A stretch of DNA of 64,000 nt from Microbacterium sp. LWH3-1.2 (GTDB taxonomy: Bacteria; Actinomycetota; Actinomycetes; Actinomycetales; Microbacteriaceae): positions 3,782,001 through 3,846,000 of the forward strand of contig NZ_JBEGIK010000001.1 of assembly GCF_040675855.1 (NCBI RefSeq). Direction: 5' to 3'. The translations under genes were made by a program, and so were the position numbers. This document shows positions 7,904 to 28,340 of the stretch, piece after piece. How positions within the stretch are numbered: the stretch's first letter is position 1; every line of letters starts with the position of its first letter. The notes under the pieces were generated by a model. It saw only the letters and a list, made by a program, of their open reading frames with translations. It was not told the DNA's origin and made no database searches.

Positions 7904-8793
7904 CGCACCGCTCCCTTCTTCTCGGCGGCCGCACCCGCGGTCGCCTCCGCGGTGGTCTCACCGACCATTTCGAGGTAGACGTCCTCGAGGCTCGGCCGCA
8001 CGATTTCGAGCTCGGCGGGCGCGCCGCCCAGCCGCGCCGCCAGGGCGGTCGCGAACGCGAAGGGGTCCTCGGTGCGCTCGTGGCGCAGCATCCCGTTCTC
8101 CACCCATCGCACGATCGGCACCCGCGCAGCCTCACCGCCGAACCCCGCGACGGGGCCGATCGCCTGCAGCCGTCCGGCGGCGATCACCGCGACGCGGTCG
8201 GCGAGCTGCGCCGCCTCGTCCAGGTAATGCGTGGTCAGCACGATCGTCGTGCCTTCGGCCTGGAGGCGCCGGATGAGCTCCCAGAACTCGCGACGGGCGT
8301 GCGGGTCGAAGCCTGTCGTGGGCTCGTCGAGGAACAGCAGCTCGGGGCGACCGATGATGCCGAGGGCCACGTCGACCCGTCGCTGCTGTCCGCCCGAGAG
8401 CTTCGAGATGCGGGTCTTCGCCTGCGCCTCGAGGCCGACGGCGGCGATCACGTCGTCGACGTCGCGCGGATCCGGGTAGAAGCCCGCGAACTGCCGCAAC
8501 TGCTCGCGGACCGTGACGAGGCCGGACTGGCCGGTCGACTGGAGCACGATGCCCAGTCGCGCCTTGAGGTCGAGGCCACCCGTGGCGGGGTCGACGCCGA
8601 GCACCTCGACGTCGCCGCCTGTGCGCCGCCGGTACCCCTCGAGGATCTCGACGGTGGTCGACTTGCCGGCGCCGTTCGGCCCGAGGAGGGCGAACGTCTC
8701 GCCGCGCTCGATCTCGAACGACACCCCGTCGACGACCGTGCGATCGCCGTACGTCTTGCGCAGGTTCCGCACCCGCACCGCTAGTGTCTGCAT
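7900..8793 (-). CDS. ABC exporter ATP-binding protein (DrrA-like)
   Basis: 297 residues. Walker A GPNGAGKSTT at ~38-47, Q-loop region at IVLQSTGQSG, signature LSGGQQRRVDVA, Walker B LLFLDEPTTGFD and the switch histidine in VLTTHYLDEA. The C-terminal ~70 residues carry the extension seen in DrrA-type subunits (ends ... SLEDVYLEMVGE, then an Ala-rich tail). First gene of the exporter/two-component operon and overlapping the permease by four bases, so it is the likely site of promoter control. Confidence 0.94.
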   Translation of the reverse strand: MQTLAVRVRNLRKTYGDRTVVDGVSFEIERGETFALLGPNGAGKSTTVEILEGYRRRTGGDVEVLGVDPATGGLDLKARLGIVLQSTGQSGLVTVREQLRQFAGFYPDPRDVDDVIAAVGLEAQAKTRISKLSGGQQRRVDVALGIIGRPELLFLDEPTTGFDPHARREFWELIRRLQAEGTTIVLTTHYLDEAAQLADRVAVIAAGRLQAIGPVAGFGGEAARVPIVRWVENGMLRHERTEDPFAFATALAARLGGAPAELEIVRPSLEDVYLEMVGETTAEATAGAAAEKKGAVR

Positions 8794-8847
8794 GCTTCCA
8801 GCGTCGCCGGGAACGGATGCTGCGCCCAGCCGTCATCCGCAGGAGAA

Positions 8848-8871
8848 GGCATCCCCCATTCGGTGGATGCC
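8848..8871. terminator. Hairpin downstream of the small membrane protein gene
   Basis: GGCATCC at 8848-8854 pairs with GGATGCC at 8865-8871, with two further inner pairs. It lies between the stop of the 8913-9251 gene and the start of the ABC operon, so it probably ends the former. Weak by length (7 bp plus inner pairs). Confidence 0.5.
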
Positions 8872-8912
8872 GTCGTCCACCGTGCGCTCCCGCTGCCCGC
8901 GGCGCGATCCGG

Positions 8913-9251
8913 TCAGTGACCCTGTGCAGTCGTCACCGGCACGGGAGCCGGAGCCGCCGCGCCGGCCGCCCGCTCCTCGGCGCGCAGCAGGCGCTGACCG
9001 CGGATGCCTCCCGCGAGCGCCCACGCGAGCAGCCACACCCCGGAACCGACCGTCACGATGAATGCGACGCGCAGGCCGACGTCGGGGTCGAGCAGCACCA
9101 CCAGGGCGATGAGCGACATGACGCCGCCGACGACAGCGCCCGTGGCGCCGATCATCGTCAGCACGCAGCCGCGCGCGAGCCACCACGCGATGCCACCGGC
9201 GATGACGAGCACGATGGCGAGCACGACGGCTCCCCAGATCCAGGCGTCCAC
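8913..9251 (-). CDS. Small three-helix membrane protein of unknown function
   Basis: 112 residues from a GTG at 9251 ([20 protein letters not shown]). Three hydrophobic segments at about 6-26, 36-60 and 66-85, followed by a basic/Ala-Pro rich cytoplasmic tail. I recognise no family. The frame is open further upstream, but the hydrophobic protein begins at this GTG; an ATG just upstream is in another frame. It diverges from the aminotransferase gene, with about 150 bp between the starts. Confidence 0.65.
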
Positions 9252-9390
9252 GACGCATAGGGTACCGCGCCCCCGGGCCGATCCGGAAGTGCGCTTACCG
9301 ATCGGACGCTCCGTCGTGTCGCGCCCGAATCGCGCACACGAGCGGGCCACGCGTGCGCGATCGGCGGCTGAAACGTCGCGAGGCGCCGAC

Positions 9391-9402
9391 TACGCTCGAA
9401 GC
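9391..9402 (+). promoter_or_regulatory. Probable -10 element of a leaderless promoter
   Basis: TACGCT at 9391-9396 ends six bases before the GTG at 9403, the spacing expected when transcription starts at the start codon itself. No Shine-Dalgarno lies before the GTG. The -35 element is not clear. Confidence 0.45.
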
Positions 9403-10623
9403 GTGACCGAACGCCCACCGCTCTCCCGCAAGCCCACGCTTTCCAAGAAGCTCAGTGCCATCGCCGAGTCCGCGACCCTCAAGGTCGATGCCAAGGCGAA
9501 GACGCTGCAGGCCGCCGGCCGGCCCGTGATCTCGTACGCGGCCGGCGAGCCCGACTTCGCGACCCCGCAGTTCATCGTGGACGCCGCCGCCGAGGCGCTG
9601 CACAACCCCGCGAACTTCCGCTACACGCCCGCAGCCGGCCTCCCGGTGCTGCGCGAGGCGATCGCCGCGAAGACGCTCCGCGACTCGGGCCTCGAGGTCG
9701 ACCCGTCGCAGGTTATCGTCACCAACGGCGGCAAGCAGGCCGTCTACCAGGCCTTCCAGACCGTGGTGAACCCCGGCGACGAGGTGCTGCTGCCGGCGCC
9801 CTACTGGACGACCTACCCCGAGGCGATCGCCCTGGCCGACGGCATCCCCGTCGAGGTGTTCGCCGGTGCCGACCAGGACTACAAGGTGACCGTCGAGCAG
9901 CTCGAGGCCGCCCGCACCGACAAGACCACGGCCCTCGTGTTCGTGTCGCCCTCGAACCCGACCGGCTCGGTGTACACCCTCGAAGAGACCGAGGCGATAG
10001 GCCGCTGGGCCGTCGAGCACGGAGTCTGGATCATCTCCGACGAGATCTACCAGAACCTCGTCTACGAAGGCACGCGCGCCGTGTCGATCGTGGAGGCGGT
10101 TCCGGATGCTGCGGCCCAGACGATCCTCGTCAACGGCGTCGCGAAGACCTACGCGATGACCGGCTGGCGCCTGGGATGGATGGTCGGCCCCCAGGACGCG
10201 ATCAAGATCGCCGGCAACCTGCAGTCGCACCTGTGCTCGAACGTGAACAACATCGCGCAGCGCGCGGCGCTGGCCGCGCTCACCGGTCCGCAGGACGAGG
10301 TCGAGCAGATGCGCCAAGCCTTCGACCGCCGCCGCAAGCTCATCGTCGCCGAACTATCGAAGATCGACGGCGTCCAGGTGCCCACCCCGCTCGGCGCCTT
10401 CTACGCGTACCCGGACGTGCGCGGCCTCCTCGGTCGCGAGTGGGCCGGGATCACGCCAACGACCTCTCTCGAGCTCGCCGACCTCATCCTCGAGAAGGCC
10501 GAGGTCGCCGTCGTTCCGGGCGAGGCCTTCGGCCCGTCCGGCTACCTGCGCCTGTCGTACGCGCTCGGCGACGACGCCCTCCTCGAGGGTGTGCAGCGCC
10601 TGCAGCGCCTCTTCGCGTCGTAA
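9403..10623 (+). CDS. aspC: Aspartate aminotransferase (class I/II, subgroup Ib)
   Basis: Transfers the amino group between aspartate and 2-oxoglutarate using pyridoxal phosphate. 406 residues. The cofactor lysine is Lys248 in [15 protein letters not shown]; other landmarks are [11 protein letters not shown] (substrate side), [11 protein letters not shown] (phosphate contact), [10 protein letters not shown] and [10 protein letters not shown], and an arginine in SGYLRLSYA near the C-terminus that binds the alpha-carboxylate. The GTG at 9403 is the only good start, with a -10-like box directly upstream, suggesting a leaderless mRNA. A hairpin at 10639-10674 closes the gene. Confidence 0.93.
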
Positions 10624-10953: not shown

Positions 10954-11850
10954 ATGCGCGACTGGAACCTCCCGCCCCACCTGCTTCCAAGCTTCACCGT
11001 GCGCGAGGCACGCGACGCCGGGGTCGCCCCCTCGCAGCTTTCGGCGAGGTCGCTGCTGCACCCATTCCATGGCGCTCGAACGACGAGGGAACTGAGCCCG
11101 GTAGCGCGCCTCGAGCTCCTGATGCGCGCCCTGCCCTCACAGGCTTTCGCCTGCGGCCCGACTGCGGGCGTCGTACTCGGCGTGCCGCTCCCCGTCGCTC
11201 TCCAGAACGACGCGTTCGAACGACCGACGATCGCGGTGCCGTATCCGAACAACAGAATCCGAGGGCGGCGAGTTCGCGGACGATCTCTGCAGATCGCGGA
11301 CGATGAGGTGCTGACGAGGCGTCGCATCCGTGTGACTCGTCCATCGCGGACGTGGCGCGACCTCTCCGCCGAGCTGGACCTTCCTGCGTTCGTCGCCGTG
11401 ACGGACTTCCTCATTGCGCGCAACCGACGCCGTTGCACGATCGATCAACTGACGGCGGAGCACACCCGAGCGCCGCGCTCGCCTGGCGCTGGAACTCGTC
11501 GCCGCGCCCTCGAACTCTGTTCGGAGCGTTCGGAGTCACCCCGTGAGTCCGAGCTCCGTTGCGTTCTCGAACTGGCCGGACTCCCGCGGCCTGAGTGCAA
11601 TGTCGAAATCCATGACGGCACACGATTGGTCGCCCGCGTCGACATGCTCTACCGCGCGCAGAAACTGATCATCGAGTACTACGGCGATTACCATCGCGAT
11701 CCGGATCAGTGGAGCCGCGATGAAATGCGGCGCGCCGAACTGGAGTCTCTCGGCTACCGATTCACCGTGGTCACACGGCGCGACTTCGACGACCTGCCCG
11801 CCCTCACGGCCCGTATCCGCCGACTCCTTTCTGTATCGACCGCAAGCTGA
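10954..11850 (+). CDS. AbiEi-like N-terminal domain plus DUF559 (Vsr-like) nuclease
   Basis: 298 residues. The N-terminal ~60 (FTVREARDAGVAPSQLSAR...LHPFHGA) resemble the winged-helix start of AbiEi-type antitoxins. The C-terminal third is a DUF559 domain of the very-short-patch-repair/PD-(D/E)xK fold: RVDMLYRAQKLIIEYYGDYH with candidate metal ligands Asp230 and Glu241, then ELESLGYRFTVVTRRDF. The function of this widespread actinobacterial combination is not established. The ATG at 10954 follows GATCGAGGG, a weak ribosome site. It lies between two sets of TGGCGASTCGCCA repeats, which raises the idea that protein and repeats belong together. Confidence 0.8.
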   Translation: MRDWNLPPHLLPSFTVREARDAGVAPSQLSARSLLHPFHGARTTRELSPVARLELLMRALPSQAFACGPTAGVVLGVPLPVALQNDAFERPTIAVPYPNNRIRGRRVRGRSLQIADDEVLTRRRIRVTRPSRTWRDLSAELDLPAFVAVTDFLIARNRRRCTIDQLTAEHTRAPRSPGAGTRRRALELCSERSESPRESELRCVLELAGLPRPECNVEIHDGTRLVARVDMLYRAQKLIIEYYGDYHRDPDQWSRDEMRRAELESLGYRFTVVTRRDFDDLPALTARIRRLLSVSTAS

Positions 11851-11924
11851 TCTGCAATCAGGCCGCCCAGGCGCGTGCCCTGGCGACACGATCCGGCGGC
11901 CGTCGGATGCGTCCTGTCGAATAT

Positions 11925-12296
11925 CCGGCGACTCGCCAAAACCCAGGACGAATGCCGCGTGTTCCGGCGACTCGCCAAGACCCAGGACGAATGCCGCGTG
12001 TTCCGGCGACTCGCCAAAACCCAGGACGAATGCCGCGTGTTCCGGCGACTCGCCAAAACCTAGGACGAATGCCGCGTGTTCCGGCGACTCGCCAAAACCC
12101 AGGACGGATGCCGCGTGTTCTGGCGACTCGCCAAAACCCAGGACGGATGCCACGTGTTCTGGCGACTCGCCAAAACCCAGGACGAATGCCGCGTGTTCCG
12201 GCGACTCGCCAAAACCCAGGACGAATGCTGCGCGTTCCGGCGACTCGCCAAAACCCAGGACGAATGCCGCGTGTTCTGGCGACTCGCCAAAACCCC
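11925..12296. repeat. 39-bp tandem repeat array (nine full copies plus a partial tenth)
   Basis: Unit starts fall at 11925, 11964, 12003, 12042, 12081, 12120, 12159, 12198, 12237 and 12276 (truncated). Each unit holds GGCGACTCGCCA, usually preceded by C (units 6, 7 and 10 by T, which completes the 13-bp palindrome), then AAACCCAGGACG and ATGCCGCGTGTT. Units differ at only a few positions. The period is a multiple of three, so long artificial open frames run through it. It lies between the convergent DUF559 gene and murB. There are no unique spacers, so it is not a CRISPR. Confidence 0.95.
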
Positions 12297-12371
12297 AGAG
12301 CCCGAGAGCCCGAGCGCCCGCGAGCCCGAGCGCCCGCGAGCCCGAGAGCCCGCGAGCCCGCGAGCGCGGGG
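12297..12371. repeat. Low-complexity GAGCCCGCGAGCGCCC tract
   Basis: Irregular short repeats of GAGCCCG and GCGCCCGCGAG directly adjoining the 39-bp array, up to 25 bp before the murB stop. Probably slippage-generated. Confidence 0.8.
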
Positions 12372-12395
12372 CGGGTGGGATGCTTCGCCCCTGGG

Positions 12396-13532
12396 TCAGA
12401 GCTCGACGTTCACCAGGACGGGCTCGGGCTGCAGGATCAGGCCGAACTCGGACTGCACGCGGCCCTGGATGAAGCGCGCGAGCTCGGCGAGCTCGGCGGC
12501 GGTCGCGTGGCCCCGGTTCGTGAGCGCCAGGGCGTGCTTGGTCGACAGGCCGGCGCGCGAGCGCGGCAGCTTGAAGCCCTTGCGCACGCCGGCGTGCTCG
12601 ATGAGCCAGCCGGCGCTCACTTTCACGTCGGACTCGACGGTCGTGGGCGCGGGCACGTAGCCGTCGAAGTTCGCCAGCGGGATGACGAGCACGGGGTCGA
12701 GGTCGGGGTGCACGGGCCAGCGCGGGCACGCCTCGGGGAGCGTGCGGGCGAAGGATGCCGACACCACGGCGTTCTGGAAGAACGACCCGGCGCTGTACGT
12801 GTCGGGGTCGTCTGCGTCGAGCACCATGCCCTTGCTGCGCCGGGTCTCGAGGATGCGCTCGCGCACCCACGCGAGGGTCGCCTCGTCGTCGGGACCGAGG
12901 CGCAGCGCGGTACGGAGCTGATCGCCGGCGATGCGACGGGCGCCCTGACCGATGTCGGGGAGGTCGAGCGTCACCGAGAGGATCACCGCGCGCCGCGCGG
13001 GAACCGAGCCGTAGTGGTGCTTGAGAACCGAGGTGCGGAAGCCCAGCCCCAGCTCGGCGGCGGGAACGGTCGACACCTCGCCCGTCGACTCGTCGAGCAG
13101 CTCGACCTCGCTGAGGGTCTGCACGATCTCCTGGCCGTACGCACCGATGTTCTGCACCGGGGCGGCGCCGACGGTTCCGGGGATCCCCGACATCGCCTCG
13201 ATCCCGCCGAGTCCTTCGGCGACCGCGAACGCGACGAGGTCGTCCCAGTCGTGCCCCGCCTGGACCGTGAGCCGCACGCGTCCGGGGACAGGGGACGCCA
13301 TTCGTTCGATGCCGGTCGTGAGCACGCGCACGACGGTGCCCTCGAACGGCTCATCGCCGACGAACAGGTTCGATCCGCCGCCCAGCACGAGCCACTCGTC
13401 GCCGGTGGCCCACACGTCGCGCAGGGCGTCGACGAGCTCGGCGGTGGTGGCGGCGTCGATCATGCGCTCCGGTGTGCCGCCGGTGCGGAGCGTCGTGAGC
13501 CGCGCAAGCGGGACGGGGGTCACTGTGGTCAT
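12396..13532 (-). CDS. murB: UDP-N-acetylenolpyruvoylglucosamine reductase
   Basis: Reduces the enolpyruvyl group on UDP-GlcNAc to give UDP-MurNAc, using FAD and NADPH, in peptidoglycan precursor synthesis. About 378 residues. FAD-domain landmarks are LVLGGGSNLFVGD, MSGIPGTVGAAPVQNIGAYGQE (shown in part here: GIPGTVGAAPVQ) and YSAGSFFQNAV, where the serine is the proton donor position of type I MurB. I placed the start at the ATG at 13532 (MTTVTPVPLARL); an ATG nine bases upstream (13541) is equally in frame and neither has a clear ribosome site. Last gene of the DUF2510-TauE-MaoC-MaoC-MurB run. Confidence 0.94.
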   Translation of the reverse strand: MTTVTPVPLARLTTLRTGGTPERMIDAATTAELVDALRDVWATGDEWLVLGGGSNLFVGDEPFEGTVVRVLTTGIERMASPVPGRVRLTVQAGHDWDDLVAFAVAEGLGGIEAMSGIPGTVGAAPVQNIGAYGQEIVQTLSEVELLDESTGEVSTVPAAELGLGFRTSVLKHHYGSVPARRAVILSVTLDLPDIGQGARRIAGDQLRTALRLGPDDEATLAWVRERILETRRSKGMVLDADDPDTYSAGSFFQNAVVSASFARTLPEACPRWPVHPDLDPVLVIPLANFDGYVPAPTTVESDVKVSAGWLIEHAGVRKGFKLPRSRAGLSTKHALALTNRGHATAAELAELARFIQGRVQSEFGLILQPEPVLVNVEL

Positions 13533-18585: not shown

Positions 18586-19968
18586 ATGGACATCATCCTG
18601 GTCTCAGGTCTGTGGATGGGCGGATGGGCGTGGTACGAGATCGCGCCCGCCCTCGAACGGGAAGGGCATCGGCCGGTGGCGCTCACGCTTCCCGGCATGG
18701 GGTCGGCGGATGCCGACCGCTCCGCGATCACCCTGGCCGACCACGTCGCGGCCGTCGTCGCCGCGATCGACGAGGCACCCGGCGAGAAGGTCGTTCTGGT
18801 CGGGCACTCCGCCGGCGCCGGCATCGTCTACGCGGCTGCCGACGCGCGCCCCGACCGTGTCGCCCGGCTGATCCTCGTCGGCGGATTCCCGACCGCTGAC
18901 GGCGACCCGCTGCTCGACGGGTTCGCGACGGAGGGCGGCGAGCTTCCCCTGCCCCCGTGGAGCGAGTTCGAGGAAGCCGATCTCCGCGATCTCGGCGAGG
19001 GCGGCATGACGGCGTTCCGCACGTACGCGATCCCCTCACCCGCGGGTGTGGTCACCGGCATCCAGCGCCTCGGCGACGAACGCCGGCTCGACATTCCGGT
19101 CACCGCCGTCGCGACCGAGTACACGGTCGCCGACCTGCAGGGCTGGATCGACGCGGGGGCACCGCCGGTGCGGGAGTTCGCGCGCCTGCGCGACGTCACG
19201 TACGTCGACCTGCCGACGGGGCACTGGCCGCAGCTGACGCGTCCGCAGCAGCTGGCCCGCGTCATCCTCGCGCAGCCGCCGCTGGGCGACGGCAAGATCG
19301 CCCCGGAGGTCGAGACGATCAGCCCGGTCGCCTTCCACGCGTCCGAGGGCGTGGAGGACTGGCGGGTCCTGTACTGGGGCGCGCACGCCTTCTTCCGCGC
19401 CGACTCGCTCTCCCAGGGCGCGCGCCTGGTGGCGGAGGTCGCCGCCATCGCGGAGCGCCTCGAGCACTACCCCGACATCGACCTCCGACCCGAAGGCGTC
19501 TTCGTCAAGACCTTCAGCCGTCGCGACGGCGCACTGAGCCGGACGGATACCGAGCTCGCAGCATCCGTCTCACGCGCCGCCCGCGAGCTCGGTCTCGAAG
19601 CCGATCCGTCCGTGCTCACCGTCGTCGGCATCGCCGTGGCGCAGGGGCCCGACACGCACGTCCGGCCGTTCTGGAGCGCCGCGCTCGGCTATGACCCGCT
19701 CGGCGCCGAGGACGCGATCGATCCCCTGCGCCGCAACCCACATGTGTGGTTCCACCCGCTCGCGCCGCCGAAGCCGGGCCGCGGGCGCACGCATATCGAC
19801 ATCTCGGTGCCGCGTGACCAGGTCGAGGCGCGGGTGGCGGCGGCGCTGGCCGCGGGTGGACGGATGGCCGACGACTCGCACGCGCCGGAGTGGTGGACTC
19901 TGACGTCGCCCGACAACCACGGCGTCGACATCGCGGCGTGGCCCGACGACTCTGACTTCTCCGGCTGA
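18586..19968 (+). CDS. Three-domain fusion: alpha/beta hydrolase, pterin-carbinolamine-dehydratase-like, VOC
   Basis: 460 residues. Residues ~1-235 form an alpha/beta hydrolase: oxyanion region VSGLWMGGW, nucleophile elbow GHSAG, and the terminal histidine in LPTGHWPQL. Residues ~245-330 (DWRVLYWGAHAFF ... LEHYPDIDLRPEGVFVKTF) match the pterin-4a-carbinolamine dehydratase-like fold. Residues ~345-460 (DPSVLTVVGIAVAQ ... FWSAALGYDP ... HIDISVPRDQVEARVAAAL) match a glyoxalase/VOC domain. Dehydratase-VOC fusions are known in actinobacteria; the added hydrolase is unusual. Substrate unknown. It diverges from copB but has no evident copper role. No strong ribosome site; the ATG at 18586 follows GCGAGGAGC by a few bases. 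Confidence 0.85.
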   Translation: MDIILVSGLWMGGWAWYEIAPALEREGHRPVALTLPGMGSADADRSAITLADHVAAVVAAIDEAPGEKVVLVGHSAGAGIVYAAADARPDRVARLILVGGFPTADGDPLLDGFATEGGELPLPPWSEFEEADLRDLGEGGMTAFRTYAIPSPAGVVTGIQRLGDERRLDIPVTAVATEYTVADLQGWIDAGAPPVREFARLRDVTYVDLPTGHWPQLTRPQQLARVILAQPPLGDGKIAPEVETISPVAFHASEGVEDWRVLYWGAHAFFRADSLSQGARLVAEVAAIAERLEHYPDIDLRPEGVFVKTFSRRDGALSRTDTELAASVSRAARELGLEADPSVLTVVGIAVAQGPDTHVRPFWSAALGYDPLGAEDAIDPLRRNPHVWFHPLAPPKPGRGRTHIDISVPRDQVEARVAAALAAGGRMADDSHAPEWWTLTSPDNHGVDIAAWPDDSDFSG

Positions 19969-20555: not shown

Positions 20556-22196
20556 TCACCCGACGGAGCCGTACGTCGCGAAGAAGCGGTCCCGGAAGGC
20601 GTCCATGCGCCACACCGGCGACGCGTCCGCCGGGCGCAGACCCGCCGTCCAGCGCCAGTCGGCGATCGCGTCGATCACCGCCGGATCTCTCGCGATGACG
20701 CTGACCGGCACGTCCCGACCGGCCTCCTCGCCGCTCACGATCGCCGCCGGCTGGTGGTCGCCGAGCAGGACGACGACCAGGTTCGGGTCGTCGACGTTAT
20801 CGAGGAAGGAGAGCACCGACCCCAAGGAGTACTCGACCGATCTCCCGTAGGAGCGCTGGACCGCCTCCGGGTCCTTCCAGACCTCGCTCGCCTGCTCACC
20901 ACGGTCCGGCTGTGCGTCGTAGATCGACCCGTCGCCGACGTCGTTCCACGGCACCAGCTCGGGCAGCGGCGCCCACGGCGTATGCGACGACACCAGGTCG
21001 ATCTCCGCCATCACCGGCCGGTCGGAGTCCGCGAGCACGTGGTCGGCGAAGTGCTTGAGCGTGTACTGATCGGGGATGCGCGCGTACCCGAACGACGGCC
21101 CGAGATAACCGACGTTCGTCGCGTCGAGCATCGTGTCGTAGCGGTAGAACGATGAGCCGACATCCCACGGATGCCGGTTCGATGGGACGTCGCTGACGGT
21201 GCGCCAGCCGGCACGGCCGAACGCCGAGCTGAGAGTGAGGCGGTCGGTCCGCACCACCAGGTCATACACCGCCTGCGAGTCGACCCACACGCCGGTCTGC
21301 AACGTCGCATGCGCGAGCCAGCTCACCCCGCCGAAGGTCGGTGACGTCAGCCAGGCACTCCGCGTGGTGAAGCCGTCGGCCGCGAGCGTCCGGTCGCCAC
21401 GGCGGAGCACGTCGTTCACGCCATCCGAGATGCCGTCGCCCTCGAGAGCGACCCTGCCGTAGCTCTCGACGAACACGAACAGCACGTCCTTGCCCTCGAG
21501 AGCGTTCAGCAGGTCTGTCGCCGGCACGTCGCTGAACGGGTCGTCGGCGACTTCGCGGGCGACCCGGGCCCGCGTCTCGAGCGCAGACACGGCTCGCGAG
21601 ACCGCGGTGCCGAGGGACGTGGCGGATGCCGCGGCCGCGACCGGGTCCGGAATGCGCAGCGGCGACGCCACCGCCGCCATCGCGATCCACGCCACGGTGA
21701 CGGCGGCGAGGGCACCCCGTCCGCGGTCGCCGCGCTGCCGCAGCGCGGCATCGACGTGCAGCGAACCCCATCCGACCGCGGCCCCGACCGTCACGACCAG
21801 CGCGACCGCCCCGGCGAACAGCGCGGTGGCGGGAGCCGCTCCGATCGCCGAGGCCAGGACCCCGTACGCGTCGCCCAGCTGGGGCCAATCCAGCGGCACG
21901 AAGTGGATGCCGAGCGCCGCCTGATAGCCGCGATCGATGCTCGCGAGGAGGACGGCGAGGGCGACGAACACGCCGAACGCGGTCGCGACGGCGAGGCGCA
22001 GCATCCGCCACGGGATCAGCGCGAGCACCAGCAGCGTGACGATCGACTCGACCGGGATGCGGACGAGGTCGGCGATCGAGCCTGTCGCCAGCACCCCGGG
22101 AATGAGGGGGAGCACGACCAGAGCGGCGATCGCGCCGCCGAGGAGGAGCCGCCGACGCCCGACCGGAACGACCCGCACGCCGGGCATCGTGCTCAC
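20556..22196 (-). CDS. Membrane-anchored sulfatase-fold protein (alkaline-phosphatase superfamily)
   Basis: 546 residues. The N-terminal ~200 hold about four or five hydrophobic segments; the C-terminal ~330 form an extracytoplasmic sulfatase-like domain beginning DVLFVFVESYGRVALEGDG and ending VVVLLGDHQPAAI, where Asp-His match metal ligands. The nucleophile region appears to be SAWLTSPTFGGVSWLAHATL. Relatives include phosphoglycerol transferases (LtaS/MdoB type). Start: GTG at 22196, whose GTGA overlaps the stop of the reductase gene; an ATG at 22187 is possible. Last gene of the seven-gene coupled operon; it could modify an exported glycoconjugate with a phospho-alcohol. Confidence 0.82.
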   Translation of the reverse strand: MSTMPGVRVVPVGRRRLLLGGAIAALVVLPLIPGVLATGSIADLVRIPVESIVTLLVLALIPWRMLRLAVATAFGVFVALAVLLASIDRGYQAALGIHFVPLDWPQLGDAYGVLASAIGAAPATALFAGAVALVVTVGAAVGWGSLHVDAALRQRGDRGRGALAAVTVAWIAMAAVASPLRIPDPVAAAASATSLGTAVSRAVSALETRARVAREVADDPFSDVPATDLLNALEGKDVLFVFVESYGRVALEGDGISDGVNDVLRRGDRTLAADGFTTRSAWLTSPTFGGVSWLAHATLQTGVWVDSQAVYDLVVRTDRLTLSSAFGRAGWRTVSDVPSNRHPWDVGSSFYRYDTMLDATNVGYLGPSFGYARIPDQYTLKHFADHVLADSDRPVMAEIDLVSSHTPWAPLPELVPWNDVGDGSIYDAQPDRGEQASEVWKDPEAVQRSYGRSVEYSLGSVLSFLDNVDDPNLVVVLLGDHQPAAIVSGEEAGRDVPVSVIARDPAVIDAIADWRWTAGLRPADASPVWRMDAFRDRFFATYGSVG

Positions 22197-22936
22197 CGAC
22201 GCTCGGCGGCGGCGCGTCCGGCTCCCGTCGGCTCGGCGTGGAGCATGCCGAAGCGGTCCGACAGGGCGTAGCGCAGGAGCACGACGTCGCCGATCTGGCG
22301 TGTGTCGGCGAGGTGCGCACGGCGGGATGCCGTCCACGGGAAGGCGCCCGGTCCGACGACGCGCGGGGCGCCGGTCTCACCGACGAAGAACGGCGCGACC
22401 ACCAGGTGGAGCTCGTCGACGAGGTCGGCACCGAGGAACTGGGTCAGCACCGTGCCGCCCCCCTCGACCATGAGGCTTCGCACTCCGTGATTCGCGCCGA
22501 GGTCGTCGAGCAGAGCGTCCATCGTGACGCAGTCATCGCCGATCCCGACGACCACCGCGCGATGGCCCAGCCGTACGCCGAGATCCGCCGCGCGATCCCG
22601 CGGGCAGTAGACGATGCGCGGCCCCTCCCCCGTCGTGAAGAACGCGGCGTCCGGTGACAGGTCGCCGCTCGCGGTCACCGTCACCTTCGCCGGCGATTCC
22701 TGACGCCCCGAGGCCAGGCGCCGAGCGCGACGCGCGGCATCCCGCACCAGCAGGCGCGGGTTGTCGCGGCGCACCGTGGACGCTCCGACCATGATCGCGT
22801 CGTGCAGCGCGCGCACGTCGTCGACGCGGTCGAGGTCGGCGGCGTTGGACATCGCGAGCCGGGCGGGCTCGAGGCTGTCGAGGTAGCCGTCGATCGACAT
22901 CGCGCAGCTGAGGGTGACATACGGTCGCTCGCTCAT
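22193..22936 (-). CDS. RibD C-terminal-type (pyrimidine/dihydrofolate-like) reductase
   Basis: 247 residues in the RibD C-terminal/DHFR-like fold: VTLSCAMSIDGYLDS at the N-terminus, IMVGASTVRRDNPRL for NADPH binding, and SLMVEGGGTVLTQFLGADLVDELHLVVAPF, the hallmark of the riboflavin reductase domain. It lacks the deaminase half of RibD. Known members reduce ribosylaminopyrimidines or pterin-like compounds. The start at 22936 has GAGGAG upstream and overlaps the UPF0104 stop. In this operon it probably reduces a pathway intermediate rather than serving riboflavin synthesis. Confidence 0.85.
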   Translation of the reverse strand: MSERPYVTLSCAMSIDGYLDSLEPARLAMSNAADLDRVDDVRALHDAIMVGASTVRRDNPRLLVRDAARRARRLASGRQESPAKVTVTASGDLSPDAAFFTTGEGPRIVYCPRDRAADLGVRLGHRAVVVGIGDDCVTMDALLDDLGANHGVRSLMVEGGGTVLTQFLGADLVDELHLVVAPFFVGETGAPRVVGPGAFPWTASRRAHLADTRQIGDVVLLRYALSDRFGMLHAEPTGAGRAAAERR

Positions 22937-23886
22937 GCGGATCTCCTCTTCCCGATGATGCCCGCTGCGGGCAGCGATCGGAAGCGGTCCGCGAGCAGTG
23001 CGAGGCAGCCGGGAAGAACCGCGACGACGGTGAGCACGCCGAACCCGGTCGACACGGCGATCCCCGCGCCCGCCCCGAGTCCCGCGAGTGCGAACGCGGA
23101 GGCCGCGACCGCCTCGCGCGGACCCCAGCCGCCGACGTTGACCGGGATGGCGGCCGCGCCGAGCACGATCAGCGCCACGACGGCCAGCTCGTCCGCACCG
23201 GCATGCACTCCCGCCGCCACCCCCGCGATCACGAAAGTCGCGGCGTGCGCCGCGATCACGACGACCGACGCGGCCGCGATCGCGAGCAGCGCGGCGGGCC
23301 GCGTGAGGACGGGTCGCAGCATCCGGTACTCCCGTCGCAGCGCAGCGCGCCCACGCCGGGTGCCGGCGACGACACCGAGGACCGCGAGCGCCAGCGCGGC
23401 GATCGCACCGCTGATCCGGGCCAGCGGCGCGAGCGGTGACGCCAGGCCCAGCGGCAGCAGGATCGCGAGTGTGACCACGATCTGCACGAGCTGTCCCGCG
23501 ACGCGCTCCGCGGCGACCGCCCGGGCGGCGAGGTCGACACGCTCGTGGTGCCGCCCGTGCGCATACGCCCGGTGGACGTCGCCCATGACTCCGCCGGGCA
23601 GCACGGTGTTGAGGAACTGCGAGCGGTAGTACGAGGCGATCGCCTCTCTCCAGGGGAGCGGCAGCCCGAATCCCGCGGAGACGATGCGCCAGCGCCACGC
23701 GGCGGCCGCCGTGGCGACGGACGCGAGCGCCACGGCGGCGACGATCGTCACGGGCGAGATGGACGCCAGGCCGTGCAGGAACGGCCCGATGCCGACGACG
23801 GCGACCGTTCCCGCGACGACCGCGAGCGCCGCCGCGATCCGCAGCACGGTGCGCAGGCGCGGCGGGATCCTGCTCAGCGCGGCCAT
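22933..23886 (-). CDS. UPF0104 / LPG-synthase-TM-like membrane protein
   Basis: 317 residues with about eight membrane helices. The conserved stretch is WREAIASYYRSQFLNTVLPGGVMGD with the downstream RAVAAERVAGQLVQ, both typical of the lysylphosphatidylglycerol-synthetase membrane domain family. Members of this family are proposed or shown to flip lipid-linked substrates. It overlaps the methyltransferase gene by 13 bases and the reductase gene by four. Its presence suggests that the pathway product is lipid-linked or crosses the membrane. Confidence 0.85.
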   Translation of the reverse strand: MAALSRIPPRLRTVLRIAAALAVVAGTVAVVGIGPFLHGLASISPVTIVAAVALASVATAAAAWRWRIVSAGFGLPLPWREAIASYYRSQFLNTVLPGGVMGDVHRAYAHGRHHERVDLAARAVAAERVAGQLVQIVVTLAILLPLGLASPLAPLARISGAIAALALAVLGVVAGTRRGRAALRREYRMLRPVLTRPAALLAIAAASVVVIAAHAATFVIAGVAAGVHAGADELAVVALIVLGAAAIPVNVGGWGPREAVAASAFALAGLGAGAGIAVSTGFGVLTVVAVLPGCLALLADRFRSLPAAGIIGKRRSA

Positions 23887-24710
23887 GCCAGGAGGTCCTC
23901 ATGTGAGACGGTGACGTGCAGTCGCCCGGCGGCAGCCTGCGCCAGACGGCGCTCGCGGTAGTCTGCGGCGAGCGCCGCGAGCTCGGGACGCTGCTCGACG
24001 GAGGCGCCGATCCAGCCGTCCAGCCATTCGCCGATCAGCGCGGTGTCCCGGCGCGCGAGGCGCCACGGGGTCGCCGCGATGCGGACGTTCCAGCCGGCAT
24101 CGGCGAAGACGGCCCGGACCGCGGCAACCGCGTCGGGTCCCAGCATCCGCCGCCCTGACGCGTCGCGTCGCTGATGCGCGTTGAAGGCGGACTCGATCGC
24201 CCGCCCGACCTCGTCGGGCCGCTCGGCGGGACGAAGCCGCACCGAGCCCGTGACCGAGAGGCTGAACAGCGCCGGCGTGCCCGCGGCGACGCAGGCCGCG
24301 ACGACATGGGCGGCTTCGGCTTCGGTGATGACGTCGAGGAGAGCGGATGCCGTCACCGCCGCCGCACCGTGGAAGGCGTCGATCGGCAGCGAGGCGAGGT
24401 GCTCCACGACGGTGTCCGCGGCGATGGGGCGGCCCGACGCGTCGACGACGGTGCGCAGATCGAGATGCTCGACGATGTCGGCGTCGCCGTCGCGGAGCAC
24501 CCACCGCTGCGGGCCGGGGAGGCGCGGAGCGAGCCAGCGGGTCATCGATCCGGTGCCCGCGCCGAGGTCGTGCAGCACGAGGGGCGCCGACGCCGAGCCC
24601 GGAGCGAGCAGGCGTGCGAGCTCGTGGGCGAGGTCGGCCGAGCGCGCGTCGTCGTCGGCGGGCGCCCTCAGCGCGAGCCAGTCCGCCGTCGCTGTCGAGA
24701 TCGACGTCAT
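23874..24710 (-). CDS. SAM-dependent methyltransferase (class I)
   Basis: 278 residues. The SAM-binding motif I is VLHDLGAGTGSMTRWLAPRL near residue 45, with motif II around WVLRDGDADIVEH and a downstream SALLDVITEAEAAHVV region. The C-terminal half (~150-278) is specific and not assigned. Start at 24710 overlaps the glycosyltransferase stop (ATGA). Acceptor unknown; it may methylate the sugar or heterocycle made by this operon. Confidence 0.82.
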   Translation of the reverse strand: MTSISTATADWLALRAPADDDARSADLAHELARLLAPGSASAPLVLHDLGAGTGSMTRWLAPRLPGPQRWVLRDGDADIVEHLDLRTVVDASGRPIAADTVVEHLASLPIDAFHGAAAVTASALLDVITEAEAAHVVAACVAAGTPALFSLSVTGSVRLRPAERPDEVGRAIESAFNAHQRRDASGRRMLGPDAVAAVRAVFADAGWNVRIAATPWRLARRDTALIGEWLDGWIGASVEQRPELAALAADYRERRLAQAAAGRLHVTVSHEDLLAWPR

Positions 24711-25720
24711 GCCACCTCCAAGACATCCGCCACGCGGGTCACCGTGTCATGCCATGCCGGCAGCGTCGCCCGAGCGGCGCGCGCTTCGCGGCGCAGGCGC
24801 GCCCGAAGCGCGGGATCCGCCAGCCATGCCTCGAGCGCCGCGGCGAGAGCCGTGGGATCGCCCGGTCGTACCAGCATCCCTCCGCCGCCCACGAGCGCGT
24901 CGGGGATGCCCCCGGTCTCGGCGGCCAGCACCGGGATCCCCCGCGCCCGCGCATCTGCGATCGCCATGCCCGAGCTCTCGACGCGCGACGGCGCGACCAG
25001 CAGCGCACAGCGGCGGTAGGCGTCGTCGAGGGCGCTGTCCTCGAGCACTCCGGTGAGCCGGACCCTGCCGTCGAGCGCGGTCGCCTGCCGGGCGATGCCC
25101 GCGGCGAACTCCGGAAACGCCTCGGTCGACCCGACGATGGTGCAGCGCCAGTCCTCGGTGCGCAGCCGGCTGAGCGCGGCGAGGAGCGTGTCCTGCCCCT
25201 TGTGGGGGGCGATCACGCCGATGCACAGCAGCTCTCCGTCGTCCGCCGGCGGCCCGGGGTCCGCAGGAAGGGTCCCTGGGACGGCGACGACCGTGCGATC
25301 GGGGTCCGCGAGTTCCCGTCGGGCCAGCTCGGCCGCCGTCCAGGCGCTCGTGACGATCACGCGGTGCGCCGACGCGAGGGACCGCCTCTCGGCGTCGATC
25401 GCGGCATCCGTCGCATCCGGGAAGGCTGCCGTGACCATGTGGGCGAGCACCGTGAGTCGCAGCCGCCGCGCCGCCTCCTCCACGGCTGCCGGCGCCCACC
25501 CCGCCACCAGTCCGTCGACCAGCAGCCGCGATCCGTCAGCCGCGTCACGGAGGACGGATGCTGCGCCTTCCGCGTCCGCCGTCTCGCACACGTCGACGTC
25601 CCAGCCGCGGCGCCGGAGCCCGTCGCGGAGGTGGCGGTCGTAGACGTTGCCTCCGCTCACGCATCGGGGATCGTCGACCCCCGCGGGGACGACGAAGCGG
25701 AGGGACGGAGCATCCGTCAC
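24707..25720 (-). CDS. GT4-type glycosyltransferase
   Basis: 337 residues. N-terminal GPGGV-like loop [20 protein letters not shown]-terminal Rossmann half with [46 protein letters not shown] (E-x7-E type nucleotide-sugar motif) and [14 protein letters not shown]. This is the GT-B fold of retaining family-4 enzymes. Start: GTG at 25720 ([11 protein letters not shown]), with GTGA overlapping the PTPS stop; the frame is open far upstream but only because of shadow sequence. Donor and acceptor unknown. Confidence 0.87.
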
Positions 25721-26112
25721 ATCGCCACCTCGTAGGACGCCCACGCGACGTGCGACTCGTGCAGCGTGACGACGATCCCGCTCAGCCGCGCCTCGCCGAC
25801 ATCGCCGACGCGTACGCGCGCGACCAGGCGGTCGCCGATGATCTGGCACAGTCGCTCGGTCGTGGTGTTCACCCCCTGCAGGTCGGGCTCCTCGTCGAGG
25901 TTGCGGTAGGTCAGGGCGCCCACGATCTCGCGAAGCACCTCGCTCGCGCGGCCGATGTCGACGACGACGCCGTGCTCGTCGAGCTCGTCGGCACGGAACG
26001 TCGCGTCGACGAGGAACGTCGCGCCGTGCAGCTGCTGCGCGGGTCCGAAGACCTCGCCGCGCAGGCTGTGGGCGATCATGAGGTGGTCGCGGACGGTGAG
26101 GCTGAAGCTCAT
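25717..26112 (-). CDS. PTPS/QueD-fold protein lacking canonical catalytic residues
   Basis: 131 residues with the tunnelling-fold pattern of 6-pyruvoyl-tetrahydropterin synthase: His15 (IAHSL), His29 (LHGATF), Asp52 (VVVDIG), [11 protein letters not shown] at 82-92 and Glu119 (LHESHVAW). However, the HGH zinc motif reads HGA, the usual active-site Cys four residues before it is Ala25, and the usual Asp-His pair of LDHRNLN reads Thr-Tyr (ALTYRNLDE, residues 66-74). It probably still binds a pterin-like ligand through Glu119 but either catalyses a different reaction or is non-catalytic. Start at 26112 overlaps the dehydrogenase stop (ATGA). Confidence 0.8.
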
Positions 26113-27140
26113 TCGGCAGTCCAATCGATCGTGTGGCACAGTTCATCGGCGGTGCCGTCGGCGAGCGCCGCGGTGACCTCGGACAGCTGCCGCCAGGACG
26201 AGGTGCCGCTGAGCAGCGCGTCGTATGCGGGATCCTCGAGCAGTCGCAGGGCGAGCGCAAGCCGGTTGCGCGTCGTGCGGGAGCCTCTCCGGCGTGCCGC
26301 GACCGCGCCGACCTGACTCGGCCGGAGAGCGATGCGGCGAGAGTGGAAGTCCGCGCCGAGCTCGAGCCAGACCGGACGGTTGCCGTACCAGCTGGCGACG
26401 ACCACCTCGCCGTCGGTGGGCGCGATGGCCAGCGCCAGGTTCAGACCGGCACCTGCGCCGCTGGCCTCGATCACGACGTCGGCCTGCGGGACATCGTCGG
26501 ACGCGAGGGCGAAGCCGACGTCGAGCGCCTCGGCGGTGATCGCGCGCGCGGGGTCGACATCGACGAGAGTGACATCGGAACCCGGGATGCCGCGCGCCAC
26601 ACGCGCGATCGCGCACCCGATCATGCCCGCGCCGACGACGACCACCCGGTCGCCGACCAGCGGGGCGGCATCCCAGAGCACATTGACCGCGGTCTCGACC
26701 GCCCCGGCGAGCACCGCCCGGCGCGGCGGAACACCATCCGGCAGCGGATGGAGGGCGTCGGCGGGCACGACGAAACGGGACTGGTGCGGGAACAGGGCGA
26801 ACACGGTGCGGCCGCGGAGCCAGGCGGGCCCGTGTTCGACCGTTCCGACGCTGAGGTACCCGTACTTCACCGGGAACGGGAACTCGCCTGCCTGGAAGGG
26901 CGCGCGCATGCGCTCGTGCTCCGACTCCGGCACCTCTCCCCGGGCGACCAGCGACTCGGTTCCCCGGCTGACGCCGGTGTAGAGCGTCCGCACCGACGCC
27001 TCACCGTCGGAGACATCGGGCACCGGCTCACTGCGGAACTCGCCCTGCCCCGGGGCGATCGACCACCATGCGGTCGCAGCATCCGGAATCTCGTGGTGAA
27101 CCTCAGCGGGTCCCTGCGTCGTGTTCCCCGTGACCGCCAT
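26109..27140 (-). CDS. Zinc-type (MDR) alcohol dehydrogenase-like protein
   Basis: 343 residues of the medium-chain dehydrogenase superfamily. The nucleotide-binding motif is [17 protein letters not shown] with [11 protein letters not shown] beyond it; the N-terminal GroES-like part includes [12 protein letters not shown] and [10 protein letters not shown]. The usual GHExxG and structural-zinc cysteines are absent, as in the subgroup that acts on tethered or sugar substrates. First gene of the leftward operon; the divergent phosphatidyltransferase start is only 20 bp away, so promoters must overlap coding sequence. Substrate unknown. Confidence 0.83.
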
Positions 27141-27160
27141 GAGGAGTACACGGAGCGCGC

Positions 27161-27913
27161 ATGGGAAAAGTTCAGTGGGTGCCCTGGTGGTGGGTCGCGG
27201 CCGGATTCGCCGGGATGATCGCGATCGGCATGGCGACGGCGCTGACGGCGGCGGCGTGGACGACAGGCATCGGGTATCTCGTGGTGTCGACGGCTTTGCT
27301 GAGCCGGGGCATCCGCCGCGGGCGGGTCGAACGCTTCGGACCCGCGAACGCGGTCACCGCGACGCGATCGATGTTCGTGGGGCTCGTGACCGCTCTGGTG
27401 GTGGCGTCCTTCGCGGACGCGGTGTCGACTGCGCTGCTGGTCACGCTCGTCGCCGTGGCGCTCGCGCTGGACGGCGTCGACGGGTACGTCGCCCGTCGGA
27501 CCCGCAGCGAGAGCGAGCTGGGCGGGCGCTTCGACATGGAGGTCGACGCCTTCCTGCTGCTCGTCCTGTGCGTGTATGACGCACGGTACGTCGGCTGGTG
27601 GGTGCTCACGATCGGCCTCCTCAGGTACGCGTTCGTCATCGCCGGCCTGTGGCTGCCGTGGATGAGGCGGACGCTGCCCCCGCGCTCTTGGCGCAAGGTC
27701 GTCACGGCCGCTTGCGGCATCGCCCTGGCCATCGTCGCGTCCCAGCTGCTGCCCGCCGCGGTGAATGCCGTCGTCGCTGTGGCGGCGCTCCTGCTGGTGC
27801 TCGAGTCCTTCGGACGCGACGTCCTCTGGCTCATCCGTGTGAACCTCGCGGGCGCCCGGCTCGTTTCCCTCGAGAAGGCGTCGACCACCTCACCTCCGGA
27901 AGAGAGCAGGTAG
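27161..27913 (+). CDS. CDP-alcohol phosphatidyltransferase family protein
   Basis: 250 residues with about six membrane helices. The catalytic CDP-alcohol signature D-x2-D-G-x2-A-R-x8+-G-x3-D-x3-D is present as LDGVDGYVARR followed by LGGRFDMEVDAF, with all four aspartates. Such enzymes displace CMP from a CDP-activated alcohol, usually CDP-diacylglycerol. It diverges from the seven-gene operon with a 20-bp gap and probably supplies or modifies the lipid part of the same product. A second small membrane protein follows after 4 bp. Confidence 0.87.
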   Translation: MGKVQWVPWWWVAAGFAGMIAIGMATALTAAAWTTGIGYLVVSTALLSRGIRRGRVERFGPANAVTATRSMFVGLVTALVVASFADAVSTALLVTLVAVALALDGVDGYVARRTRSESELGGRFDMEVDAFLLLVLCVYDARYVGWWVLTIGLLRYAFVIAGLWLPWMRRTLPPRSWRKVVTAACGIALAIVASQLLPAAVNAVVAVAALLLVLESFGRDVLWLIRVNLAGARLVSLEKASTTSPPEESR

Positions 27914-27917
27914 GACC

Positions 27918-28340
27918 ATGACCGAATCCAGTGGGCGCGCGCTCTGGACCATGCGCATCCTCAGCGCGATCGCCCTCCTCGCCGCAGGCGGCATCCACGT
28001 CTATCTCGCGTTGAACGGCGTCGGCGGCTTCCTGGGGGTGATGTTCATCCTCAACGGCGTGGCCGGGCTCGTCCTGGCTGCGGGGATGCTGCTCCTTCGC
28101 GGTCGCCTCCTGCAACTCGTGACCGTTCTGAGCCTGCTGTTCCTCATCGCGACGCTGGGAGCCCTCGTCCTGGCACTCACGGTGGGGCTGTTCGGCATCC
28201 ACCAGGCGTGGAACTTCACGCTCGTACCCCAGACCGTGATCGTCGAGTCGATCGGCATCGTGATCCTCGGGATCACGACGGCGATGGTGCTGCGCCCGCA
28301 GCCGGTGCCAGGCATGCGCCGGCACGCCACGGGCGTCTAG
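27918..28340 (+). CDS. Four-helix membrane protein of unknown function
   Basis: 140 residues with four hydrophobic helices at about 12-32, 38-60, 66-90 and 105-125 and a basic C-terminus. No family recognised with confidence. AGCAGGTAGGACC lies just before the ATG, overlapping the end of the phosphatidyltransferase gene four bases away, so the two are cotranscribed. A strong hairpin follows at 28369. Confidence 0.75.
   Translation: MTESSGRALWTMRILSAIALLAAGGIHVYLALNGVGGFLGVMFILNGVAGLVLAAGMLLLRGRLLQLVTVLSLLFLIATLGALVLALTVGLFGIHQAWNFTLVPQTVIVESIGIVILGITTAMVLRPQPVPGMRRHATGV

Follow-up and report, generated by a model that had tools for sequence, protein, structure and literature searches.

The stretch analysed here (the window) comprises 64,000 nucleotides of the genome of Microbacterium sp. 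LWH3-1.2 (contig NZ_JBEGIK010000001.1, positions 3,782,001 to 3,846,000). Positions 20556 to 28340 of it hold a block of nine genes, encoding a protein with the fold of 6-pyruvoyl-tetrahydropterin synthase (PTPS), a stand-alone RibD_C reductase, an MDR dehydrogenase, a GT4-family glycosyltransferase, a methyltransferase, a CDP-alcohol phosphotransferase and three further membrane proteins. The block is a real, widespread and uncharacterised gene set that recurs more than by chance, and its genes almost surely form one pathway. On our best reading the product would be a glycosylated, methylated diaminopyrimidine or pteridine, lipid-linked and flipped in most lineages. The entry compound is likely to be 2,5-diamino-6-ribosylamino-4(3H)-pyrimidinone 5'-phosphate (DARP). 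No paper on the block was found in the open-licence library searched.

A genome collection was scanned with the window's PTPS-like protein. The 95 rows used here are the best 80 of at least 437 relatives, 14 short loci from related genomes (one being the window's own genome) and the window itself; they represent 93 distinct places, L002 being the window's place and L003 equalling L026 over the 270-base PTPS core (both are short and fall outside the 60-locus set). Neighbours were counted in the 60 rows whose flanks reach 7.5 kb or more in either direction (full-flank loci), homologues being sought within 8 kb and the other 35 rows excluded. In these loci, which were picked via the PTPS-like protein, the MDR and GT4 genes are present in 60 of 60, the UPF0104 membrane protein in 59, the CDP-alcohol transferase in 58, the methyltransferase in 53, a GTP cyclohydrolase II in 46, RibD_C in 36, a creatininase-family gene in 31 and a 140-aa membrane protein in 13. 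The gene for a sulfatase-fold membrane protein, sought with six query proteins, is found in 26 of the 60 and in 31 of all 95 rows. Near-constant gene order recurs across many genera, and the 95 rows include Microbacterium, Streptomyces, Micromonospora, Actinomadura, Nocardioides, Terrabacter, Geodermatophilus and Amycolatopsis. Other Streptomyces neighbours (a beta-lactamase fold, amino-acid dehydrogenases and others; six were scanned) were set aside as lineage synteny.

Co-occurrence was also checked in the reverse direction, in 58 related genomes. The PTPS-like gene occurs in 14 of them, the CDP-alcohol transferase in 13 and UPF0104 in 11, every one among those 14 (Fisher p 4e-12 and 2e-9, respectively, uncorrected for ancestry); the transferase and the PTPS-like gene lie on separate contigs in three of the 13 genomes (G039, G048 and G057). 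Within the window's genus the PTPS-like gene has a scattered distribution, being present in 7 of 35 genomes when the window's own is counted, and 20 of the 396 genomes in a phylum-wide sample match the protein at E <= 1.1e-35. The original prediction was of a lipid-linked or pterin-type glycoconjugate pathway, an idea that was to fall if the genes did not co-occur beyond close relatives. The block travels across many actinobacterial genera, and among the 58 genomes the two lipid genes were found only where the PTPS-like gene is present, so the idea survives that test and is partly supported; its pterin-type part gives way to the riboflavin branch.

That correction is made because GTP cyclohydrolase II, not FolE, accompanies the set. 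The suggestion to look for a GTP cyclohydrolase travelling with it was borne out for cyclohydrolase II, with the 46 full-flank loci noted above, and not for FolE: a tblastn search at 1e-10 with the FolE of the window's own genome matched none of the 95 rows. Together with the loss of PTPS catalytic residues described below, this points to a riboflavin-branch diaminopyrimidine, possibly a pteridine. The family assignment of the cyclohydrolases was checked with PF00925, which matched in L031, and with RibA models, which matched in L031 and L064.

These cyclohydrolases fall into types by the residue at the position of E. coli Tyr105 (taken from the PDB record). Among 58 cyclohydrolases in the 95 rows it is Tyr in 22, Met in 31, His in four and Cys in one. 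A creatininase-family gene is present at none of the 22 Tyr-type loci, all of which carry RibD_C, and at all 36 of the others (in five of these it was located by tblastn, and a genome search also shows four of the five). The creatininase-family gene of L059 has one in-frame TGA and could be a pseudogene or reflect a sequencing error. A further test drew on 32 later loci, 18 with a cyclohydrolase and 14 without one and hence silent on the Tyr rule; the rule was kept in 17 of 17 (five Tyr-type loci without creatininase and 12 Met-type loci with it), L162 being excluded for a PTPS sequence identical to that of L082 (18 of 18 if it is included). Eight genomes of the later set had already contributed to the 95 rows, in pieces of 3.4 kb that are not long enough to show the cyclohydrolase. 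Identity between the Tyr and Met types is about 45-55%, and the Met type is closer to the genome's own RibBA (55-58%; 11 sequences compared), so that the two types may be separate recruitments.

The creatininase-family protein of a related locus matches PF02633 at 6e-67. For the cyclohydrolase partner a precedent is SCO6655 of Streptomyces coelicolor, which we take to be a GTP cyclohydrolase II yielding a formamidopyrimidine rather than DARP; like the enzymes of the Streptomyces loci in this set, it would carry Met where E. coli has Tyr105. Since the Met type is SCO6655-like and a creatininase-family deformylase is known in Sinorhizobium, the two enzyme modules should deliver one compound, DARP. 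The Sinorhizobium formamidase, BrbF, deformylates the formamidopyrimidine to DARP according to the available part of PMC9478397. We would expect the same reaction of the cluster protein, likened to BrbF by family and not by direct sequence comparison; BrbF serves riboflavin synthesis, whereas the cluster gene has a non-Tyr cyclohydrolase II as its partner. Neither the window nor 14 of the 60 full-flank loci have a cyclohydrolase in the block. The window's genome (3.9 Mb) encodes GTP cyclohydrolase I and GTP cyclohydrolase II once each, at places beyond the window, in agreement with the original statement that the window contains no GTP cyclohydrolase. DARP for the window's block would then be supplied by the single RibA/RibBA elsewhere in the genome, whose only RibA match lies outside the block.

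DARP would next meet the RibD_C protein (22193..22936, minus strand), which has PF01872 (2.7e-41) and no deaminase domain by Pfam. The archaeal and fungal DARP reductases of the Rib7 type likewise consist of a single RibD_C domain, and TIGR01508, the NCBIfam model for the archaeal DARP reductase, ranks first for three of three cluster RibD_C proteins scanned, at 124.6-134.6 bits against a cut-off of 186.45; unlike those enzymes, the window protein scores below the cut-off and sits among GT4, methyltransferase and lipid genes. For the RibD that the genome encodes elsewhere, bacterial models score best, and TIGR01508 gives 83.3 bits. In a PDB sequence search the nearest entry to the window protein is 5xux ('Conserved protein'), presumably the Rib7 of Methanosarcina, followed by Rv2671 and by named DARP reductases. 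At L147 a GTP cyclohydrolase II is followed by RibD_C in a single reading frame (11496-12803, minus strand), a fusion that suggests consecutive steps. Seven of the 31 full-flank creatininase-type loci have another RibD_C subtype, 25-30% identical to that of the window where BLAST aligned them. The window's own genome (G000) has twelve RibD_C-family matches, only one of which adjoins riboflavin genes.

As cyclohydrolase II, formamidase and reductase are all riboflavin-type steps, the block could be a second copy of a set that supplies riboflavin or deazaflavin, the remaining genes being passengers. This is very improbable: riboflavin synthesis has no use for a GT4, a methyltransferase, a PTPS fold or lipid genes, and plain duplication was rejected on finding that the genome's own riboflavin genes sit elsewhere (RibA and RibD by profile, RibE and lumazine synthase by eye).

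The PTPS-fold protein (25717..26112, minus strand; Pfam PTPS PF01242, 1.2e-23) is 90% identical to that of Microbacterium sp. Leaf288. Its nearest solved structure is 3d7j, 'Uncharacterized protein SCO6650' of S. coelicolor (profile E 4.1e-70), and it belongs to the same family. The window's block differs from SCO6650/SCO6655 of S. coelicolor in including RibD_C and an LtaS-like gene and in having no cyclohydrolase within it. With the 6-pyruvoyl- and 6-carboxy-tetrahydropterin synthases (COG0720) the protein shares the fold and the ring-binding Glu, retained in 22 of 22 aligned PTPS-like sequences. It differs from them in having Ala at the catalytic Cys and Thr-Tyr for the Asp-His dyad (from the alignment, the PDB alignments of a distant homologue having been checked), in having HGAT where those enzymes have HGH, throughout the 95 rows, so that one zinc His is gone, and in keeping company with cyclohydrolase II instead of FolE. 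Curated models are not reached (QueD, 43.1 bits against 89.25; 6PTHBS, 30.9 against 125.5), and among PTPS-I to PTPS-IV, as named in the available part of PMC5041015, none was seen with this gene context. More divergent homologues occur at seven loci of one distant family (L157, L158 and L174-L178, part of the 17 genomes of that family with a match in the phylum-wide sample); there HGH is retained, Ala takes the place of the catalytic Cys, and the dyad reads His-Tyr at all five loci where it is legible. With catalytic residues replaced even in the distant family, this branch probably never carried out PTPS chemistry. The protein may bind a diaminopyrimidine, and its gene company points to DARP, not dihydroneopterin triphosphate. 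A biopterin-, folate- or queuosine-type route was rejected for the lost PTPS residues and the want of FolE in the 95 rows; QueE and QueC were not searched for.

A pterin product is nevertheless conceivable in the form of a soluble glycosylated, methylated tetrahydropterin like the cyanobacterial pterin glycosides, made with RibD_C and MDR as pterin reductases and the PTPS-like protein acting on a neopterin derivative, and exported by the membrane proteins. The PTPS fold with its ring-binding Glu would suit this, as would the dihydrofolate reductase-like fold of RibD_C; Rv2671, second-nearest in the PDB search, is an enzyme that we take to have dihydrofolate reductase activity. The distant loci lend it their retained zinc motif and a FolB gene (dihydroneopterin aldolase family) divergent beside RibD_C in all seven (L157 7266-7640, minus strand, by a Pfam scan of L157 only, with matching places in L158 and L174-L178). 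We nonetheless consider it unlikely, given the missing FolE, the lost catalytic Cys and dyad, and a cyclohydrolase II, a formamidase and a cyclohydrolase-RibD_C fusion that suit DARP instead. The pepteridine cluster, also with a PTPS homologue and a tetrahydropterin-derived product, has GTP cyclohydrolase I and non-ribosomal peptide synthetase-like enzymes as partners in the available part of PMC5384830. An acyltransferase-like gene, named by eye, follows FolB in all seven distant loci.

The distant loci run in the order RibD_C, MDR, PTPS, GT4. In L157 and L158 GT4 and methyltransferase form one protein, both halves of which are matched in the other five; L147 also has a GT4-methyltransferase fusion (8653-10557, plus strand). 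The soluble part thus looks like an older core to which lipid attachment, if real, would be a later addition. An alternative product is a soluble secondary metabolite derived from DARP, either a diaminopyrimidine glycoside or a pteridine glycoside; resistance, export or an unrelated lipid would then be the business of the CDP-alcohol transferase and the UPF0104 protein. The distant core, in which RibD_C, MDR, PTPS, GT4 and methyltransferase stand with no lipid genes detected, would agree with this, as would the patchiness within the genus, typical of secondary metabolites; DARP is also a known natural-product precursor, for 8-azaguanine, in the available part of PMC7109123. Yet in the main group both lipid genes are as constant as the soluble ones, and in the 58 related genomes they appear only alongside the PTPS-like gene, which makes a purely soluble product unlikely in our view. 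An 8-azaguanine-like route, in which (PMC7109123, available part) the partner is a nitric oxide synthase, was set aside, with no such enzyme among the scanned recurrent neighbours and no dedicated search made.

The lipid-linked reading draws on three membrane-related proteins. The CDP-alcohol phosphotransferase (27161..27913, plus strand; Pfam CDP-OH_P_transf, 2.1e-13) has the complete motif of its family, D-x2-D-G-x2-A-R-x8-G-x3-D-x3-D, invariant in 15 of 15 aligned sequences. The UPF0104 protein (22933..23886, minus strand) matches the flippase-like family LPG_synthase_TM at 1.1e-28. The sulfatase-fold membrane protein (20556..22196, minus strand; its start may be 22187) has a putative LtaS-like alkaline-phosphatase-superfamily domain. 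The predicted model of this protein (pLDDT 74.5) finds the lipoteichoic acid synthases LtaS/LtaP as its top fold matches, at TM-scores of only 0.32-0.35 of the query and with phosphoethanolamine transferases and sulfatases ranking close behind. It shares with LtaS conserved Glu, Thr, His and Asp-His, presumably the catalytic residues; unlike LtaS it has no match in a PDB sequence search, and its gene is confined to the 26 of 60 loci. It would make chemical sense for a phosphatidyl-linked head group to be flipped and then transferred by an LtaS-like enzyme.

Sugar and methyl transfer are assigned from protein families, as are lipid linkage and export. The GT4 protein (24707..25720, minus strand) matches Glycos_transf_1 at 1.2e-26. 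The putative S-adenosylmethionine-dependent methyltransferase (23874..24710, minus strand) has a sub-cut-off Pfam match and a predicted model of pLDDT 89.2, with class I methyltransferases as top fold matches. The MDR dehydrogenase (26109..27140, minus strand) is BchC-like, at 44 bits with the NCBIfam bchC model (cut-off 291). Curated Pfam cut-offs are passed by the window's PTPS, GT4, LPG_synthase_TM, RibD_C and CDP-OH_P_transf proteins; the MDR, methyltransferase and sulfatase-fold proteins have matches below them only.

Put together, the block would be a dedicated side branch off the riboflavin pathway. The first step, GTP to DARP, is well supported by the gene neighbourhoods, and would be taken by a Tyr-type cyclohydrolase II alone, by a variant cyclohydrolase with a creatininase-family formamidase, or in the window's genome by the housekeeping RibBA. 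The stand-alone RibD_C would reduce DARP to a ribitylamino compound, as family, fusion and neighbourhood suggest. The altered PTPS-fold protein may then bind and shape the diaminopyrimidine, possibly with closure of a pteridine ring, while a carbon of a side chain or sugar may be oxidised or reduced by the MDR enzyme. GT4 would add a sugar and the methyltransferase a methyl group. Finally, the CDP-alcohol transferase would join the product to a phosphatidyl lipid for the UPF0104 protein to flip (a step not seen in the deepest relatives), and in some lineages the LtaS-like enzyme may transfer the phospho-head group to a surface acceptor. We regard this whole scheme, from the DARP side branch to the modified, glycosylated, methylated, lipid-linked and flipped product, as evenly poised between right and wrong.

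Several observations weigh against it. Two nearer relatives (L148 and L149) have only MDR, PTPS and GT4 detected nearby, and at the seven distant loci the lipid genes, as well as cyclohydrolase II and creatininase, have no match at 1e-8, while the FolB gene there favours pterin chemistry. The cyclohydrolase types track bacterial families and ancestry is uncorrected, leaving far fewer independent cases of the Tyr rule than the counts. The best NCBIfam model for the creatininase-family protein is MftE (142.8 bits; cut-off 172), with ArfB at 39.1 bits (cut-off 180). TIGR01508, itself sub-cut-off, leads the general RibD_C model by just 5 to 22 bits. No RibD_C was seen near 24 of the 31 full-flank creatininase-type loci.

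All reading frames of the nine genes were checked and lie where they had been placed. Six of the seven leftward genes, led by that for the MDR dehydrogenase, overlap their successor: MDR/PTPS, PTPS/GT4 and GT4/methyltransferase by 4 bases each, methyltransferase/UPF0104 by 13 and UPF0104/RibD_C by 4. The last overlap, RibD_C with the sulfatase-fold gene, is 4 bases if the GTG start at 22196 is used and zero with the ATG start at 22187, so the predicted range of 4 to 13 bases depends there on the GTG start. These overlaps suggest translation as one coupled unit. The divergent CDP-alcohol transferase begins at 27161 and MDR at 27140, with 20 bases between, as predicted. Beyond the transferase lies the 140-aa membrane protein (27918..28340, plus strand), loosely associated with the set and without a match in Pfam or NCBIfam profile scans. 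The gene at 18586-19968 (plus strand) is conserved beside the block in ten loci, all Microbacterium and including the window; its L016 homologue, the copy scanned with Pfam, has alpha/beta hydrolase, Pterin_4a (carbinolamine dehydratase-like) and Glyoxalase_6 domains.

At its fullest, the proposal is of a new class of actinobacterial membrane lipid, a phosphatidyl-linked, glycosylated and methylated ribityl-pyrimidine or ribityl-pteridine made from DARP by either of two interchangeable modules, flipped to the cell surface, where it would act as donor for an LtaS-like enzyme in some lineages; this we hold only tentatively, and it may well prove wrong. The division into Tyr and non-Tyr cyclohydrolases offers a simple biochemical test. 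As the block is common, identification of a single product would inform on many soil bacteria.

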